This document shows, piece after piece, positions 7,469 through 20,469 of a stretch of DNA of 29,401 nt. Both the position numbers and the translations under genes were made by a program. The notes beneath the pieces are model-generated. The model saw only the letters and a program-made list of their open reading frames with translations, did no database searches and had not been told where the DNA came from. Source of the DNA: a virus. Each line of letters begins with the position of its first letter. Within the stretch, counting starts at the first letter, position 1. The stretch lies in the IMG/VR virus record IMGVR_UViG_3300028840_005045, positions 1 through 29,401 of that record, one strand, 5' to 3'.

Positions 7469-9802
7469 TTATTTTTTAGTTTCGTTTTCTAACGCAGACA
7501 GCCTTGCTTCAAGCTCTTGATTGTGTTTAACCAACGCGGCAATTATTGCCCGGTCGTGGTAGTTGCGTCGTTTTTCTTCCACGGGGACACTGTCATCTCC
7601 TGGCGCCGCTTCTGGTATTACTTTTGCTACCTCTTGCGCAATAAACCCCAGCTCACGTAGTCCCGAGGAGTATTTAGTTCCCTCTTTCCATTCGTACCAC
7701 GTGGGGGACAACGCTAAAATGGCGTCACGTCCAGGCACATTGTCCGCCAGTTTATTTTTTAGCCGGGCGTCTGAGGCACTGACCACCCCATTAGCATCTG
7801 TGCTAAGAGTCCCTGCGCCGTACGCGTTAAACGTTAGCGTACCGTCGTCGTCAATTTCAAGGTTGTCGGTGCCGTCTCCCGCAGCACTTGCGGAAGTCCT
7901 AAAAATTAGCCGGGAGCTGAAATTGTTGGCAGTGTCGGTAGCCGTATACTGAGCCACCATGCCGCAGCGAGTGCCGTCAGAAGAGTCGCCGCTCCTGCTA
8001 AACATAACTTTGCCGATATAATTGCCCGACGTGTATGACGCCGTTGTGTTCGTTACATTTACACAAGGGACGCTGTCCGCGGTGGTAGACGAAGACGCTG
8101 TGTCACGAGCAGTCACGATAGACGAAGCGTAAGAAGTGTTTGTGTCGCTTACGGACAACCGGCCCCCGTCGGAGCTATCTTCAAACACGGCTGCTACTCC
8201 GCCCCCTGACGCAATCCCGACTCTGCCGGCTGCCACCAAGTATATGCCGGTGTCTGTGTCTCCATCAAAAGACCAAGCGGGGGTAGACACGCTTCCAAAA
8301 TCGCCAACACGCGCCCACGTAGCCGACAACTGTAAGGCGCTTACGCCGCCGCAAGCAAAACCCAGCTGGTTTATGGCGTTTCGGTACATCCCTGTGTCGG
8401 CGTCCGAGCTAAACGTAAAGTCGGGAGTGCTGACCCCGCCATCGCTGCCCTTAAATTGGTCGCCGGAATTTAGCATTGATATCCCAGTGGTGTCTAACCG
8501 AATAATACCAGAGCCGCCAACAGCAAAATCAAGGGCCCCAACTCCAGCTAAATACATACCGGTGTCGATATCGCCAACAAATGAGTACGCCGGAACCGCT
8601 GCCGTCCCGTTGAACTGTGTTCTTACCCAACTAGAAGACATTAGGAGCGCTTCGGACCCGCCGCAAGCAAAACCCAGCTGGTTTATAGCGTACCGGAACA
8701 TCCCCGTGTCGGCGTCCGAGCTAAACGTAAAGTCGGGAGTGCTGACCCCGCCATCGCTGCCCTTAAATTGGTCGCCGGAATTTAGCATTGATATCCCAGT
8801 GGTGTCTAACCGAATAATGCCGGAGCCACTGACAGAAAAATCAAGGGCCCCAACTCCAGCTAAATACATACCGGTGTCAACGTCGCCACCAAACGAGTAC
8901 GCCGGAGCCGCTGCCGTTCCAGTGTACCCTGTCCGCAGAGAGGAGTTAGTAACAATTAAACCCTGCACCGATCCTGCTACCAAACTTAGCTCGTTTGCCG
9001 CAGATCTATACATGCCGGTATCTGTGTCGCCAGTAAACGTGTAAGAAGGCGCGCCGGACGATCCGCCCGACAACAACAGCACGTCGTCGAACGTGCCGCT
9101 TCCCGCATGCATATCGGCGTAATCCGCAATCGTCACGTTGCCCGACGTTGTGCCCGTTTCCGTCGTGTCAATAAAAGCAAATTCGTCAGCAGATTCGTCC
9201 CAAATAACGCCTTGATTGTTACTTGATCGTTCGACAATAAAACCTAGATCAATGCTGTCGGTGGCGTTTCCCTCGCCAAGCACAATGAGCGGGTCTTCTA
9301 CCGTCAAGTTAGTCGTGTCTAACGTGGTGGCGCTGCCGGTGACTATTATGTTGGGCACGGTAAGCGTATCGGTGCCTGGGTCGTAGTTAAAATTAACGTC
9401 TTCAGCCAACTGCTCCGATGCGATATAGGGGACGCTGTTGTTAGTAAGACCCGACAAACCTGAGCCGGATATAACTACATCTGTCCACACAGATCCCGTA
9501 TATGCGACCAGGGCATCTTCGTCGTTAACCCAAACTCGCATGCCCTCTATTGCAGTAATATTAAACCAGCTGCCGCCGACGCTAAACGCCACATCGTTTA
9601 CGGTAAACGCCGACCAATCGCCGGTAGCCGAATCCACAATGTAGGCATCGCCTTGCGACGGGGATACTGGCGGGCCGGAATTCGTCCGGCTTATTACGCC
9701 CATTGAACCCGCCTCTAGCCGGCGTAGGTTTTGGTTGTACGTAACAAATTTGTTTGCGTCCGCTGACGCTAGTTCCGTAAAGCCGTATTTTTCAGTTGTC
9801 AT
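7469..9802 (-). CDS. Tail fiber with C-terminal S74 intramolecular chaperone
   Basis: A 777-aa receptor-binding fiber. Residues 1 to about 105 resemble the DUF2793 tail-attachment domain found in phage fibers (GDAYIV, WVNDEDALVAYTGSVW). Residues of about 255-525 hold six copies of a FxGDxDTGMY motif spaced near 52 residues, giving a repeated beta shaft. The last 101 residues are a peptidase S74 chaperone beginning at SDARLKN. In this family the chaperone helps trimerise the fiber and then cuts itself off before the Ser (here Ser677). It ends in a coiled coil (HNQELEARLSALENE). The ATG at 9802 overlaps the hub stop as ATGA with AGGGTGA upstream. It is the last gene before the terminator. Confidence 0.9.
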   Translation of the reverse strand: MTTEKYGFTELASADANKFVTYNQNLRRLEAGSMGVISRTNSGPPVSPSQGDAYIVDSATGDWSAFTVNDVAFSVGGSWFNITAIEGMRVWVNDEDALVAYTGSVWTDVVISGSGLSGLTNNSVPYIASEQLAEDVNFNYDPGTDTLTVPNIIVTGSATTLDTTNLTVEDPLIVLGEGNATDSIDLGFIVERSSNNQGVIWDESADEFAFIDTTETGTTSGNVTIADYADMHAGSGTFDDVLLLSGGSSGAPSYTFTGDTDTGMYRSAANELSLVAGSVQGLIVTNSSLRTGYTGTAAAPAYSFGGDVDTGMYLAGVGALDFSVSGSGIIRLDTTGISMLNSGDQFKGSDGGVSTPDFTFSSDADTGMFRYAINQLGFACGGSEALLMSSSWVRTQFNGTAAVPAYSFVGDIDTGMYLAGVGALDFAVGGSGIIRLDTTGISMLNSGDQFKGSDGGVSTPDFTFSSDADTGMYRNAINQLGFACGGVSALQLSATWARVGDFGSVSTPAWSFDGDTDTGIYLVAAGRVGIASGGGVAAVFEDSSDGGRLSVSDTNTSYASSIVTARDTASSSTTADSVPCVNVTNTTASYTSGNYIGKVMFSRSGDSSDGTRCGMVAQYTATDTANNFSSRLIFRTSASAAGDGTDNLEIDDDGTLTFNAYGAGTLSTDANGVVSASDARLKNKLADNVPGRDAILALSPTWYEWKEGTKYSSGLRELGFIAQEVAKVIPEAAPGDDSVPVEEKRRNYHDRAIIAALVKHNQELEARLSALENETKK
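8346..8969 (-). repeat. Tandem 312-bp repeat inside the tail fiber gene
   Basis: Two adjacent copies with a 312-bp (104-codon) period. Bases 8394-8506 are identical to 8706-8818 (113 bp), and 8525-8566 match 8837-8878. Other parts have diverged by scattered substitutions. The period keeps the reading frame and contains two of the FxGDxDTGMY units, pointing to recent duplication of a shaft segment. Confidence 0.9.
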
Positions 9803-16021: not shown

Positions 16022-16672
16022 TTAAGCGTTCCTTATCTCTATAAGCGGTATGTTCGGAATGCTTACTAAATCTGAAGCACTATTATCGTTATAGTAAAGA
16101 AATTCGATAATGTCCAACTCATCGGTGTCAAACCTGCACGGCACATCAAACTCGCAGCCCGCTGTAACAGTTTCCCCAACTCCTGGCGCTACCGAAAACG
16201 TTACAATTCCCGTAGTGGTGTCTACTGAGAACGCTTCGGCGCTGCCGTTATAGCCCGCCACAGTGGTGCTAGCTACTGGCTTAGTTATGGTGCGCGTGTA
16301 TGTGTTGGCGCCTTTGGTGTATGTTTTGACGAGCTGAAAAGAAGTTGTGTTGCCGTCGCCTGTGCCGATTGTTACATCATCAAACGCCGGGCTTCCCGTG
16401 CCGTTTGATCCGGTGCTAAAATCAAAGAGGTCTTTGACGCGGAATCCATCAAATCGGCCGCCCGACGCCAAAAAAAAGTTATGAACGTTAATAACGTCGC
16501 TGTACCGGCGCACGCTGTAGCGCACGTTGTACTTGTGCAGCGCCAGAGACCAACGCTGGTTGCGGTACTCAGCGCCGTTGGCGTATTTAACAACGTCGGT
16601 CATAAACGTAGGGCCGCCTTGCGACCCGTATTGAATGTTTACCGGAAATCTTGGGGTTTCTAAAAATGCCAT
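16022..16672 (-). CDS. DUF2460 distal tail protein (GTA gp12-like)
   Basis: A 216-aa protein of the DUF2460 family, which forms the distal tail ring above the hub. It shows the FPVNIQYGSQGG opening (about 9-20), the RRYSDV and FFLASGGRFDGFRVKD stretch (about 56-82) and the closing CRFDTDELDI. It overlaps the tape-measure stop by TAATG. In GTA order it would be followed directly by the DUF2163 gene; here the two lysis genes lie between. It acts in tail assembly after the tape measure. Confidence 0.9.
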   Translation of the reverse strand: MAFLETPRFPVNIQYGSQGGPTFMTDVVKYANGAEYRNQRWSLALHKYNVRYSVRRYSDVINVHNFFLASGGRFDGFRVKDLFDFSTGSNGTGSPAFDDVTIGTGDGNTTSFQLVKTYTKGANTYTRTITKPVASTTVAGYNGSAEAFSVDTTTGIVTFSVAPGVGETVTAGCEFDVPCRFDTDELDIIEFLYYNDNSASDLVSIPNIPLIEIRNA

Positions 16673-18387
16673 TACGCCATGTTCCCCCGTTGCATTTCTT
16701 GAAAAATCCTAGCCCGACTGGGCGTAAATGACGCCGCGTTGGGCGTGGTTATGTTGATCGCATTGTTGATGACGTTTCCTGCGCCGCCGCTACCGCTGCC
16801 GCCGCCAAAGCCGCCAAACGCTCCGGACACCACGTTACTTAGCGTACCAAAAAAGTCGTTGCCGCCGCTAAACTGACCGGAGTTGTCCCCCCCTAAACCA
16901 AAAGCCGACGATAGATTGGCCGCTAATGCGTCTGCCGCCATGCGCCGCAACAAGTTTTTCCACATGTCGCTTATTGATTGGAAGTCGCCTTCAAGTGCAG
17001 ACTCAACAGAACCCTTTAGCGTAACGTTGACTTCTCGTTTGAACGCCTTTGAAAACTCCCTTCCCTTTTCGGCGCCTGTTTCTGCCGACGACATGCCTTG
17101 TCGCGCGCCTTCTCCTCGAATAACAACGTCGTCGGTAGCTTCGGACAAAGCACGCTCGAGTTTTTTGGAAGGGAGGTCTTCGCTTAACGTGGCTCGCAAT
17201 TTAGACACTGACTTATTTAACGCTTCGGCATTGGCAATGACGGCGTCGTCTAATATTTGAGGCGACCCAACCTCTACAGCCGCAATCTCTCTAAGGCTGG
17301 CCGCTAGGCTAGCCATCATGTCGTTAAACGGGGCTAGTTTTTCTGCAAGCTTTAATAAATTGTCTACGATAAGGTTTTTTAACCCTGTGGCCACTGCCCC
17401 AATACCGTCCAAAACCGCTTGAAAGCCCTTTAGCAGCCCGGTTGCAAACGCGTTGGCTGCCGTCACCGCAGATTGAAACAGGATTTTTACCCCGTGCAGC
17501 CCGTCGGCAAACACTGCTACCGCTCTTGTCACTGCAGTAAACGCACTTTTCATTTTGTTTTCAAAATCCGGCCCTAAACGCACATTGTCGCGGAGGTAGT
17601 TTGCAAACGCTTCCATATACGGGGATAAGGCCACAAATGCTTTAGTTAGCCCCAGCTTCACGACGCTTGTAAGTTTGTTAAACGCCTCATTTGCGCGTTG
17701 TGATTTGTCAATTAGCTCCTGAGACATGAGGACGCCCGAGGCTTGCATTTCTTCTTGCAAATCCCTAAAACCTTGCGATCCCCGCATTAACGCCGGGCCC
17801 AACTTGCGTCCGAGGTCGTCGCCAAGGATACGCACAAGCGCTGCTTGGCGTGAAATGGGGTCTTGGGTGTTTTTTATGGCGTCGGCGAAAGTATCAAAAA
17901 GTTGATTTGGGTTTTTGTTCTTGAGTTCGTCGACCTCTATGCCAATTAGGGCAAAGTCGTCAACAAATGATTGCATGCCGTCTTGGGCATCTTTTGCGCG
18001 GTCCACAATAGTGTTCATTGCGTCGCCCACGTCGTTGGACTCTAGCCCCTGGCCGGCAAATGCCGCTGTGAGCGCTTGCGCCCGCTCAACGCTGATGTCT
18101 AAGCTTTTGGACAAGTCGTCAAATTGCCGGGCCGAGTCTTGGGCAGCTTTCTGTGACGCAACAAAAGCGGTTGTTAACCCTGCTATGGCAAGAGCCGGCC
18201 CTTTTACGCTAGCGGCAAAAGTTTTTAGGCTTTTTTCTGCTTCTTTAAACGAACGTTTAAACTGCTTAGTTACGCGTTTGTATTTGGCCTTAAACGAATC
18301 TAGGTTTTTTTCGGCTTTGTTTAGGTTTGCCTTAAACTTTGCAGTATTTAGGCCCAACGTGCCGTAAAGGTTAAATGCTTGTGCCAT
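16672..18387 (-). CDS. Tape measure protein
   Basis: A 571-aa protein. Residues of about 15-75 are basic coiled coil (LNKAEKNLDSFKAKYK), followed by helical stretches, hydrophobic segments around 65-80 and 305-345, and a glycine-rich part of about 495-545. It ends with the FTPSRARIFQEMQ motif typical of tape-measure C-termini. At about 1.5 angstrom per residue the tail would be near 85 nm, an estimate from the family rule. It follows the tail chaperones, as in other siphophages, and fixes tail length and likely passes into the host envelope during DNA delivery. Confidence 0.93.
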   Translation of the reverse strand: MAQAFNLYGTLGLNTAKFKANLNKAEKNLDSFKAKYKRVTKQFKRSFKEAEKSLKTFAASVKGPALAIAGLTTAFVASQKAAQDSARQFDDLSKSLDISVERAQALTAAFAGQGLESNDVGDAMNTIVDRAKDAQDGMQSFVDDFALIGIEVDELKNKNPNQLFDTFADAIKNTQDPISRQAALVRILGDDLGRKLGPALMRGSQGFRDLQEEMQASGVLMSQELIDKSQRANEAFNKLTSVVKLGLTKAFVALSPYMEAFANYLRDNVRLGPDFENKMKSAFTAVTRAVAVFADGLHGVKILFQSAVTAANAFATGLLKGFQAVLDGIGAVATGLKNLIVDNLLKLAEKLAPFNDMMASLAASLREIAAVEVGSPQILDDAVIANAEALNKSVSKLRATLSEDLPSKKLERALSEATDDVVIRGEGARQGMSSAETGAEKGREFSKAFKREVNVTLKGSVESALEGDFQSISDMWKNLLRRMAADALAANLSSAFGLGGDNSGQFSGGNDFFGTLSNVVSGAFGGFGGGSGSGGAGNVINNAINITTPNAASFTPSRARIFQEMQRGNMA

Positions 18388-18812
18388 TATTTTGCTAGCC
18401 TCCTGCTAATGCGCACGACCGCCTTGCCAACGCCATCAATCATCGCCCCCTGGGCTTTGTGCTTCGAGGCAATAAAACCCCGGTCAAAAAACCGGTTGGG
18501 TTGCAATTTTACAGTGCCATAGTTAACAAGGTGCGCGTGAGGGACTTTGCGAGAGAGCGTGCCGACCACGTGTTTGCCGGACTGATTTCGACGATTTTTG
18601 CGGCCCTTTCGGACAATGACCCCGTCACGCAAATGGGTACCGCTTTTGCGGCGGGAATCGTAAGGCGCTTGTTTTTTGATCTCTTTTTGAATTTCTTTTG
18701 CCCCGGCGCGCACTGCTTGGTCAATTGCTTTTTTTTCAAGCTCCGGCCCCAGTTTGGTCAGAATTTTTTGCAGTTCTGAGAAATCAAAACTTAGATCTAC
18801 ATCAACCGCCAC
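18387..18812 (-). CDS. HK97 gp10-like tail protein
   Basis: About 141 aa, with the gp10-type pattern: an N-terminal helix (FDFSELQKILTKL), AVRAGAKEIQKEIKKQAPYDS and a C-terminal HAHLVNYGT followed by NRFFDRGF. The ORF is open to 18899, but the first 29 codons lie inside the frameshifted chaperone. GTG at 18812 has AAGGA 9 nt upstream and lets the gene start next to the chaperone stop at 18802, so I use it. In HK97 such genes precede the major tail gene; here it comes after the chaperones and before the tape measure. It is probably a neck or tail-completion protein. Confidence 0.78.
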   Translation of the reverse strand: MAVDVDLSFDFSELQKILTKLGPELEKKAIDQAVRAGAKEIQKEIKKQAPYDSRRKSGTHLRDGVIVRKGRKNRRNQSGKHVVGTLSRKVPHAHLVNYGTVKLQPNRFFDRGFIASKHKAQGAMIDGVGKAVVRISRRLAK

Positions 18813-19340
18813 GCAAAAATTTCCTTTTATTTCGTTCGAATTCGGCTTCGGCTTCGGCTTTGACTGTCTCGTGTTGTATTTCGTCGTGCAAAAGCCCAAA
18901 ATGTGCTATCAAGAGGGCAAGTTGTCTTGGAGAAAACTCTTTCTTGATTTCGCTCGGGAATCGCCCCGTCTCAAGGAACAGCTTGAGGAAAAATCGATCG
19001 CGTGGCGCTTCCCTTAGGGCTTTTTTAGGTCTTCCTCTTCTTTTTCTGCGAGACCAGAATTGGCTTCTACGGCCGCCTCTACAAACGGGGCAAATTGAGG
19101 CCCCCAATATTCTACTAGATCTGGGTACGCTTCTATGCCAAACTCCGGCGTACCTTTTGAATTATAAATGCTTAGCGCCACCAGCGCGGGACGCATTGCA
19201 ACGCCCCCGCCGTGGTTGAACGCTAAAATTTCAAAATGTGCTTCGCTCAATTCCCTTGCTTCAAACTTCTCTCCCTCGACCTCAAACGGCACCACTTTTC
19301 GACTTATCTGGCTCTTTGCTCGGTCAAGAAATTTACTCAT
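18802..19340 (-). CDS. Tail assembly chaperone GT fusion made by -1 frameshift
   Basis: The long product joins the first 107 codons of the upstream frame (19340-19020) to 72 codons of the -1 frame that end at the TGA at 18804-18802, giving about 179 aa. The shift site is A AAA AAG at 19026-19020. The second part (ALREAPRDRFFLKLF, then FPSEIKKEFSPRQLALL and a charged helical tail) has no usable start of its own in a suitable place and lies exactly where gpT-like extensions sit, before the tape measure. By analogy with lambda gpGT it binds the tape measure and recruits tail-tube subunits. It is absent from the virion in known cases. Confidence 0.82.
19014..19340 (-). CDS. Tail assembly chaperone G (short form)
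   Basis: A 108-aa product read without a frameshift; it ends with EKEEEDLKKP and a TAA at 19016-19014, just after the slippery site. The region FEVEGEKFEARELSE and the RPALVALSIYNSKGTPEF stretch fit the phage tail-chaperone N-terminal fold. The start overlaps the tail-tube paralog by TAATG. By analogy with lambda gpG it coats the tape measure during tail assembly. Confidence 0.85.
   Translation of the reverse strand: MSKFLDRAKSQISRKVVPFEVEGEKFEARELSEAHFEILAFNHGGGVAMRPALVALSIYNSKGTPEFGIEAYPDLVEYWGPQFAPFVEAAVEANSGLAEKEEEDLKKP
19020..19026 (-). promoter_or_regulatory. Programmed -1 frameshift slippery heptamer (A AAA AAG)
   Basis: In the zero frame the sequence reads CTA AAA AAG CCC TAA, so the tRNA pair can slip back one base and read on as AAA AAA GCC CTA AGG. 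A AAA AAG is the most efficient bacterial slippery heptamer (as in dnaX). A short CCC-TAA-GGG stem follows directly, and a 6-bp hairpin (18970-18987) lies 32 nt further on; whether either stimulates shifting is unknown. Confidence 0.85.
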
Positions 19341-19747
19341 TACGATGTGGCCCTCGACAGCGTTCCGGCAGACACGATGCTTACAGGAGTGTTAGCAGTC
19401 TCACCTACGGCGTTAGTAAACGGGTTGTAGCTGGCCACCAATCCCGTTCCGGTGTAATTGGGGTTTGTGGCTGACACGCTTCCGGCATCCGCGCGCAATA
19501 TTACGGTTGCGGTAGTTCCGACCAACGGAAAAAGCGTGGCGTCAACGTTACTGGCGGCAAAATCTTGCCTAAAATTTAAATCCATTGACCACGACTTGAG
19601 ACCGCCGGCCATGATTCGAGTTAAGTCCGACATTGCGGTAGTGTCTTGCGACTCCGCTTCGTAGTTTAGGGTGGCGCTTTCGAGGTGATCACTTAAATCA
19701 GTGCCGCCGATTGAAAAAAACGCGTTAGTTAACACAAATTTAGCCAT
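19340..19747 (-). CDS. Tail tube-like protein, paralog 2 (short)
   Basis: A 135-aa protein sharing with its upstream neighbour the opening MAKFV(L/V)T and the block YEAESQDTTAM...TRIMAGGLKSW, a Pfam-unassigned tail-tube-like pattern also seen in other siphophages. It has beta-rich composition and the length of small tube proteins. The start overlaps the neighbour's stop as TAATG. One of the two is likely the major tube subunit and the other a terminator-proximal or distal variant; the sequence does not say which. Confidence 0.7.
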   Translation of the reverse strand: MAKFVLTNAFFSIGGTDLSDHLESATLNYEAESQDTTAMSDLTRIMAGGLKSWSMDLNFRQDFAASNVDATLFPLVGTTATVILRADAGSVSATNPNYTGTGLVASYNPFTNAVGETANTPVSIVSAGTLSRATS

Positions 19748-20469
19748 TATAGTACTCCTAATACTACCGCAAAGTCAAAAGTTGGGCTGCCTGTTCCGCC
19801 CACAGTGTATTCTACTCGAAAATAATCGTCTGCAATAGCCCCGCTAGTGTCAAGAACCTCAAAAGTTGCAGCAGTGGTTGCTTGAGTAAACGTAATACGA
19901 TCGGTGGCGCTTGTAAACCCCGCGTTATCGTCAGATGTGATTTTAACGTCAAGTGTTTGGTCGCCTGACCCGCTGCTGCTAATGACGTGCAGCTGCGCAT
20001 ACAATTTTTGCGACGCGCCAACAGCGCCTAACTGGGCCCCGGTGTTTGTTCCAGAACTAGTTTTTGTTCCGGTTGATCCCAGCACACCGCGAACCAGCCT
20101 TCCGCGAGCAAACGCAGAAAACGAAAACTTGAGCGCCTCCCCGACTCCCGCGCCTGGGTTAAACCCGCCGGCCGTGGCGTTAAAAAAATAGGCAACCGCA
20201 CCCACATCGTTAGAATTCGCAACGCTGATCGGCGTATCATCGACACCGATTTGGTTGAACATGTATGGCTCTGCGCTGCTGTAGTCGACGTAGCCGTTGG
20301 CCTGCAATTGCACGGTTTTAAGGCCCCCCGTCATGACGCGCGTGTCTTCTTCAATGCAAGTCGTGTCTTGGGCCTCGGTGGCGTATTCTAAAACAATGGC
20401 GTCCGTGTCTTGTGACAGTTTATTGGTGCCAAACCAAAGCCTCTGCCCTGTTACTACAAATTTAGCCAT
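19747..20469 (-). CDS. Major tail tube protein, paralog 1
   Basis: A 240-aa protein. Its first part (to about residue 130) parallels the next gene: YATEAQDTTCIEEDTRVMTGGLKTVQ. After a Gly/Ser/Thr-rich linker (GTKTSSGTNTGAQLGA) comes an extra beta-sandwich-like part of about 90 residues (LYAQLHVISSSGSGDQTLDVKI), typical of an added outer domain on tail tubes. It begins 5 nt after the tail terminator stop, and its length suits a major tail protein with a decoration domain. It would polymerise around the tape measure. Confidence 0.8.
   Translation of the reverse strand: MAKFVVTGQRLWFGTNKLSQDTDAIVLEYATEAQDTTCIEEDTRVMTGGLKTVQLQANGYVDYSSAEPYMFNQIGVDDTPISVANSNDVGAVAYFFNATAGGFNPGAGVGEALKFSFSAFARGRLVRGVLGSTGTKTSSGTNTGAQLGAVGASQKLYAQLHVISSSGSGDQTLDVKITSDDNAGFTSATDRITFTQATTAATFEVLDTSGAIADDYFRVEYTVGGTGSPTFDFAVVLGVL

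Follow-up and report, generated by a model that had tools for sequence, protein, structure and literature searches.

The tail assembly chaperones G and GT of phage lambda were described by Xu, Hendrix and Duda (2004) and have since been reviewed (PMC5009743). The two products are made at a ratio of about 30:1, and G binds the tape measure protein while T binds the tail tube (PMC5009743). In the SEA-PHAGES genomes alone, 2,397 annotated frameshifted tail chaperones were counted by the authors of PRFect (PMC10274946). A similar arrangement is present in the window, that is, the whole stretch of 29,401 nucleotides analyzed here (IMG/VR virus record IMGVR_UViG_3300028840_005045). As in lambda G/GT, a short chaperone ORF is located between the genes for the major tail protein and the tape measure protein, a -1 slip heptamer occurs near the 3' end of G, and a T-like C-terminal domain is encoded in the -1 frame. 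The lambda heptamer, G GGA AAG, is replaced by A AAA AAG in the window. Based on the sequence comparisons below, this locus very probably encodes the two tail assembly chaperones, G and GT, of a phage with a long tail (siphovirus-type), GT being produced by a -1 slip at A AAA AAG.

The zero-frame product G, a tail assembly chaperone of 108 aa, is encoded on the minus strand at positions 19014..19340, an assignment drawing on the ORF itself, a PHROG match, profile searches and the AF2 fold. On this strand, the 3' end of the gene reads GAC CTA AAA AAG CCC TAA, with the stop codon TAA at 19014..19016. The sequence AAAAAAG occurs only once within G, at 19026..19020, and its first base is the third base of a codon, which is the phase that tandem -1 slippage needs. 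The slip heptamer A AAA AAG (19020..19026, minus strand) is therefore in phase, and a single sense codon (CCC) separates it from the TAA. Within the 29 other genes of the window, an in-phase A AAA AAG occurs at none of 8,931 codon positions, and X XXY YYZ heptamers of any kind occupy 0.7% of these positions; accordingly, the slip site is not a chance occurrence. After the shift, the reading frame continues as AAA AAA GCC CTA AGG and encodes the peptide ALREAPRDRFFLKLFLETGRFPSEIKKEFSPRQLALL...FLRGG, 72 residues past the slip. This extension, T, occupies 18802..19020 on the minus strand including its stop codon TGA (18804..18802), and together with G it would form a GT fusion of 179 residues. 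The first-pass annotation had described a short chaperone ORF ending in CTA AAA AAG CCC TAA, a slip site A AAA AAG and a -1 frame running for 72 residues to a stop at 18802; its sequences, coordinates and peptides proved right, and the heptamer was confirmed in phase near the 3' end of G.

A T-domain profile was built from relatives only, with the window left out, and was used to scan every stop-to-stop segment of 30 codons or more in the six frames of the window (537 in total). The -1 extension was the top match with an E-value of 9.7e-9 (runner-up 6.7) and the only significant one among the 537 frames. As the best match of a profile built from relatives only, the T extension is not due to chance. 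With an earlier T profile, T of the window scored 17.4-17.6 bits compared to a best score of 7.2 bits when this peptide was shuffled 1,000 times. The G profile also ranked the G ORF first among the window frames, although this match was weaker than that of T (E 0.007).

G matched PHROG 344 (tail assembly chaperone) with an E-value of 0.0012, and the GT fusion gave a better value of 5e-4. No Pfam match was obtained for the window's own G, and its likeness to named families is weak, as reflected in the PHROG E-value. The profile of the G family matched the HK97 tail assembly chaperone 2OB9 (E 3e-4), and 2OB9 was also the best PDB match of an AlphaFold2 model of G with a pLDDT of 78 (Foldseek E 4e-4, prob 1.00, TM 0.62). 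G is thus predicted to have the tail assembly chaperone fold. The AF2 model of T is all-helical with a pLDDT of 89, and a fold search with this model found nothing. Weak PDB profile matches of T to designed repeat proteins were dismissed as low-complexity helix matches. Phage_tail_T (PF06223, 'Minor tail protein T') was matched by 13 of the 26 members of the T family alignment, and the window's own T gave no direct match to PF06223 or to other named families; its kinship with PF06223 runs via a chain of relatives.

Relatives were gathered through the neighbouring gene for the major tail protein, which gave 70 loci, and from known phages matching the GT of a relative. When the window's own G was itself the query, only a near-identical contig was recovered in IMG/VR and nothing in phage records. 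A scan of genome contigs with one T found no relative, and scans with the GT of L004, with the tape measure protein and with the second tail protein returned only the query's own or a near-identical contig. In all 30 loci holding homologues of both proteins, several of them known phages and one (L003) a near-identical contig of the window, T is encoded in the -1 frame of G. The junction is annotated as a joined CDS in three phage records (Dubu, phiSASD1 and Jflix2). After removal of close copies, an X XXY YYZ heptamer occurred within about one codon of the start of T in 21 of 25 non-redundant loci, with A AAA AAC in 14, G GGA AAC in 4 and A AAA AAG in 3, whereas canonical heptamers elsewhere in the same G genes were found at 6 of 3,086 positions (0.19%). 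The first-pass annotation had proposed comparing related phages for a conserved AAAAAAG; among the 25 loci, it is the X XXY YYZ pattern that is widespread, and A AAA AAG itself occurs in the three. It had also named a lost slip site with an intact downstream frame as evidence against frameshifting. A strict heptamer is indeed missing from four of the 25 loci (L031, L073, L075 and L085), where T nevertheless stays in the -1 frame, but their junction columns read G GAT TTY or A TCT TTC. The TTT-Y A-site codon is kept, and judging from these codons the A-site tRNA could still re-pair, although only the A site would do so well. Since these junctions still permit a slip, the four loci weaken the claim little. 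A different chaperone family was observed 3' of the tail protein in L040, L046, L052, L059 and similar loci; there, C CCT TTA or C CCT TTC is followed by a -1 extension (RRDSLTY...) in many loci.

The run of six A at the site might suggest that RNA polymerase and not the ribosome generates the fusion, slippage during transcription giving rise to a mixed mRNA pool. For slippage of this kind, a stretch of six A is short. In relatives, G GGA AAC occupies the same aligned codon, so that the tandem tRNA slip pattern is kept and the homopolymer is not, and we regard slippage during transcription as very unlikely. As the heptamer changes from A AAA AAG to G GGA AAC among relatives with the pattern retained, tandem slippage of the ribosome fits best. 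Alternatively, T could be an independent gene initiated at TTG 19107 or TTG 18912, requiring no frameshift. The ORF caller does list the T frame as 19107..18802 with the start codon TTG, as the first-pass annotation had anticipated in warning of a false start at 19107 in any annotation by ORF alone. However, neither ATG nor GTG occurs anywhere in the T frame, and the TTG 19107 call is therefore almost certainly a false start. Initiation there would extend T by a leader of 29 residues, encoded out of frame within G and without equivalent in relatives. Initiation at TTG 18912 would remove the conserved first half of T, and the homology of T sets in no more than about one residue from the slip site; an independent T gene is thus extremely improbable. 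Equally hard to credit, error-prone as homopolymers are, is an indel introduced into the A run during sequencing or assembly that split one ordinary gene, since the region is identical in a second contig (IMGVR_UViG_3300017963_000515, though this stems from the same virus or one very close to it) and the -1 break lies at the same aligned position in all other loci.

The in-phase heptamer, the homology of T, the -1 relation conserved in 30 of 30 loci, the X XXY YYZ pattern retained as the heptamer type changes, the chaperone fold predicted for G and the lack of a usable start codon for T support the original reading of this locus as a -1 frameshift of the lambda G/GT type. The site, the two frames, the homology of G and of T and the conserved -1 relation are seen in the sequences; ribosomal slippage, its rate and the roles of the products are inferred. 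Most ribosomes would read G to the TAA, and a minority would move one base back at A AAA AAG, where two lysine tRNAs would re-pair with AAA AAA. The shifted ribosomes would then continue into T, yielding the 179-aa GT fusion. By analogy to lambda, G would form a coat on the tape measure protein, GT would recruit the tail tube protein through its T part, and both G and GT would leave before the tail is completed. No clear stimulators of the shift were evident in the window. RNA structure 3' of the site was no better than in shuffles over 61 nt (z 0.5) and 91 nt (z 0.0); over 121 nt, z was -1.9, and downstream folding in the relatives was mixed with a mean z of -1.6. A purine-rich GAGGA is located about 6 nt 5' of the slip site, compared to the 9-14 nt reported for stimulation of -1 shifts. 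Several relatives are also purine-rich a few nucleotides 5' of the site, slightly above synonymous shuffles, but a Shine-Dalgarno-like stimulator was rejected because the distance is wrong and the purines are tied to acidic codons.

The surrounding genes follow the order terminase, portal, protease, capsid, connectors, tail terminator, two tail tube genes and G/GT, followed by an HK97-gp10-like gene, the tape measure gene, DUF2460 and a gene-transfer-agent-like tail tip. Immediately upstream of the chaperone ORF, the major tail protein gene (19340..19747, minus strand; PHROG 4574, E 7.9e-27) abuts G directly with a stop/start overlap, TAATG. The tape measure gene (16672..18387, minus strand; 571 aa; PHROG 9483, E 4.7e-34) is one gene downstream. 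The extension had been placed before the tape measure gene; the side is right, but the two are not adjacent, as a tail completion/neck gene similar to HK97 gp10 (18387..18812, minus strand; PF04883, E 4.8e-14; TIGR01725, E 7.5e-11) lies between them. L004, the closest other relative, has a gene comparable in size and location, as apparently does L005; in most relatives checked, T leads straight to the tape measure gene. The HK97-gp10-like gene starts with GTG at 18812 and overlaps the end of T. Because of this overlap, its translation in the window's subgroup may depend partly on frame-shifted ribosomes, which would tie the supply of neck protein to that of GT, but we consider such coupling unlikely. 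The HK97-gp10-like gene is found downstream of GT and not upstream of the tail terminator gene. Within it, eight consecutive A (18729-18736, minus strand) precede a G, and the in-phase A AAA AAA there could slip. The two tandem tail tube genes (19340-20469, minus strand; 135 and 240 aa) are paralogous and both match PHROGs 4574 and 9522, the longer one (240 aa) with an additional weak C-terminal Bbp16-like match. Elsewhere, the gene at 7469..9802, which has DUF2793 and endosialidase-chaperone domains, contains 1.8 copies of a 312-bp unit (93%) at 8346-8917.

For annotation, the locus is corrected to one gene with two products in place of two unrelated genes and a false TTG start. In contrast to lambda G/GT, the window has T and the tape measure gene set apart by an additional HK97-gp10-like gene, and its T is short (72 aa). 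G shares its predicted fold with the HK97 chaperone 2OB9, although sequence identity is only 16-18%. The Streptomyces phages Dubu and phiSASD1 and the Rhodococcus phage Jflix2 possess a homologous G and a homologous T in the -1 frame; they differ from the window by the site, G GGA AAC or G GGT TTC, by a longer T and by lacking an HK97-gp10-like gene after T and ahead of the tape measure gene. Frameshifting of this kind is already well known and ordinary. The window leaves the understanding of this well-studied and widely conserved recoding system unchanged and adds a divergent member to the lambda-type G/GT pairs.
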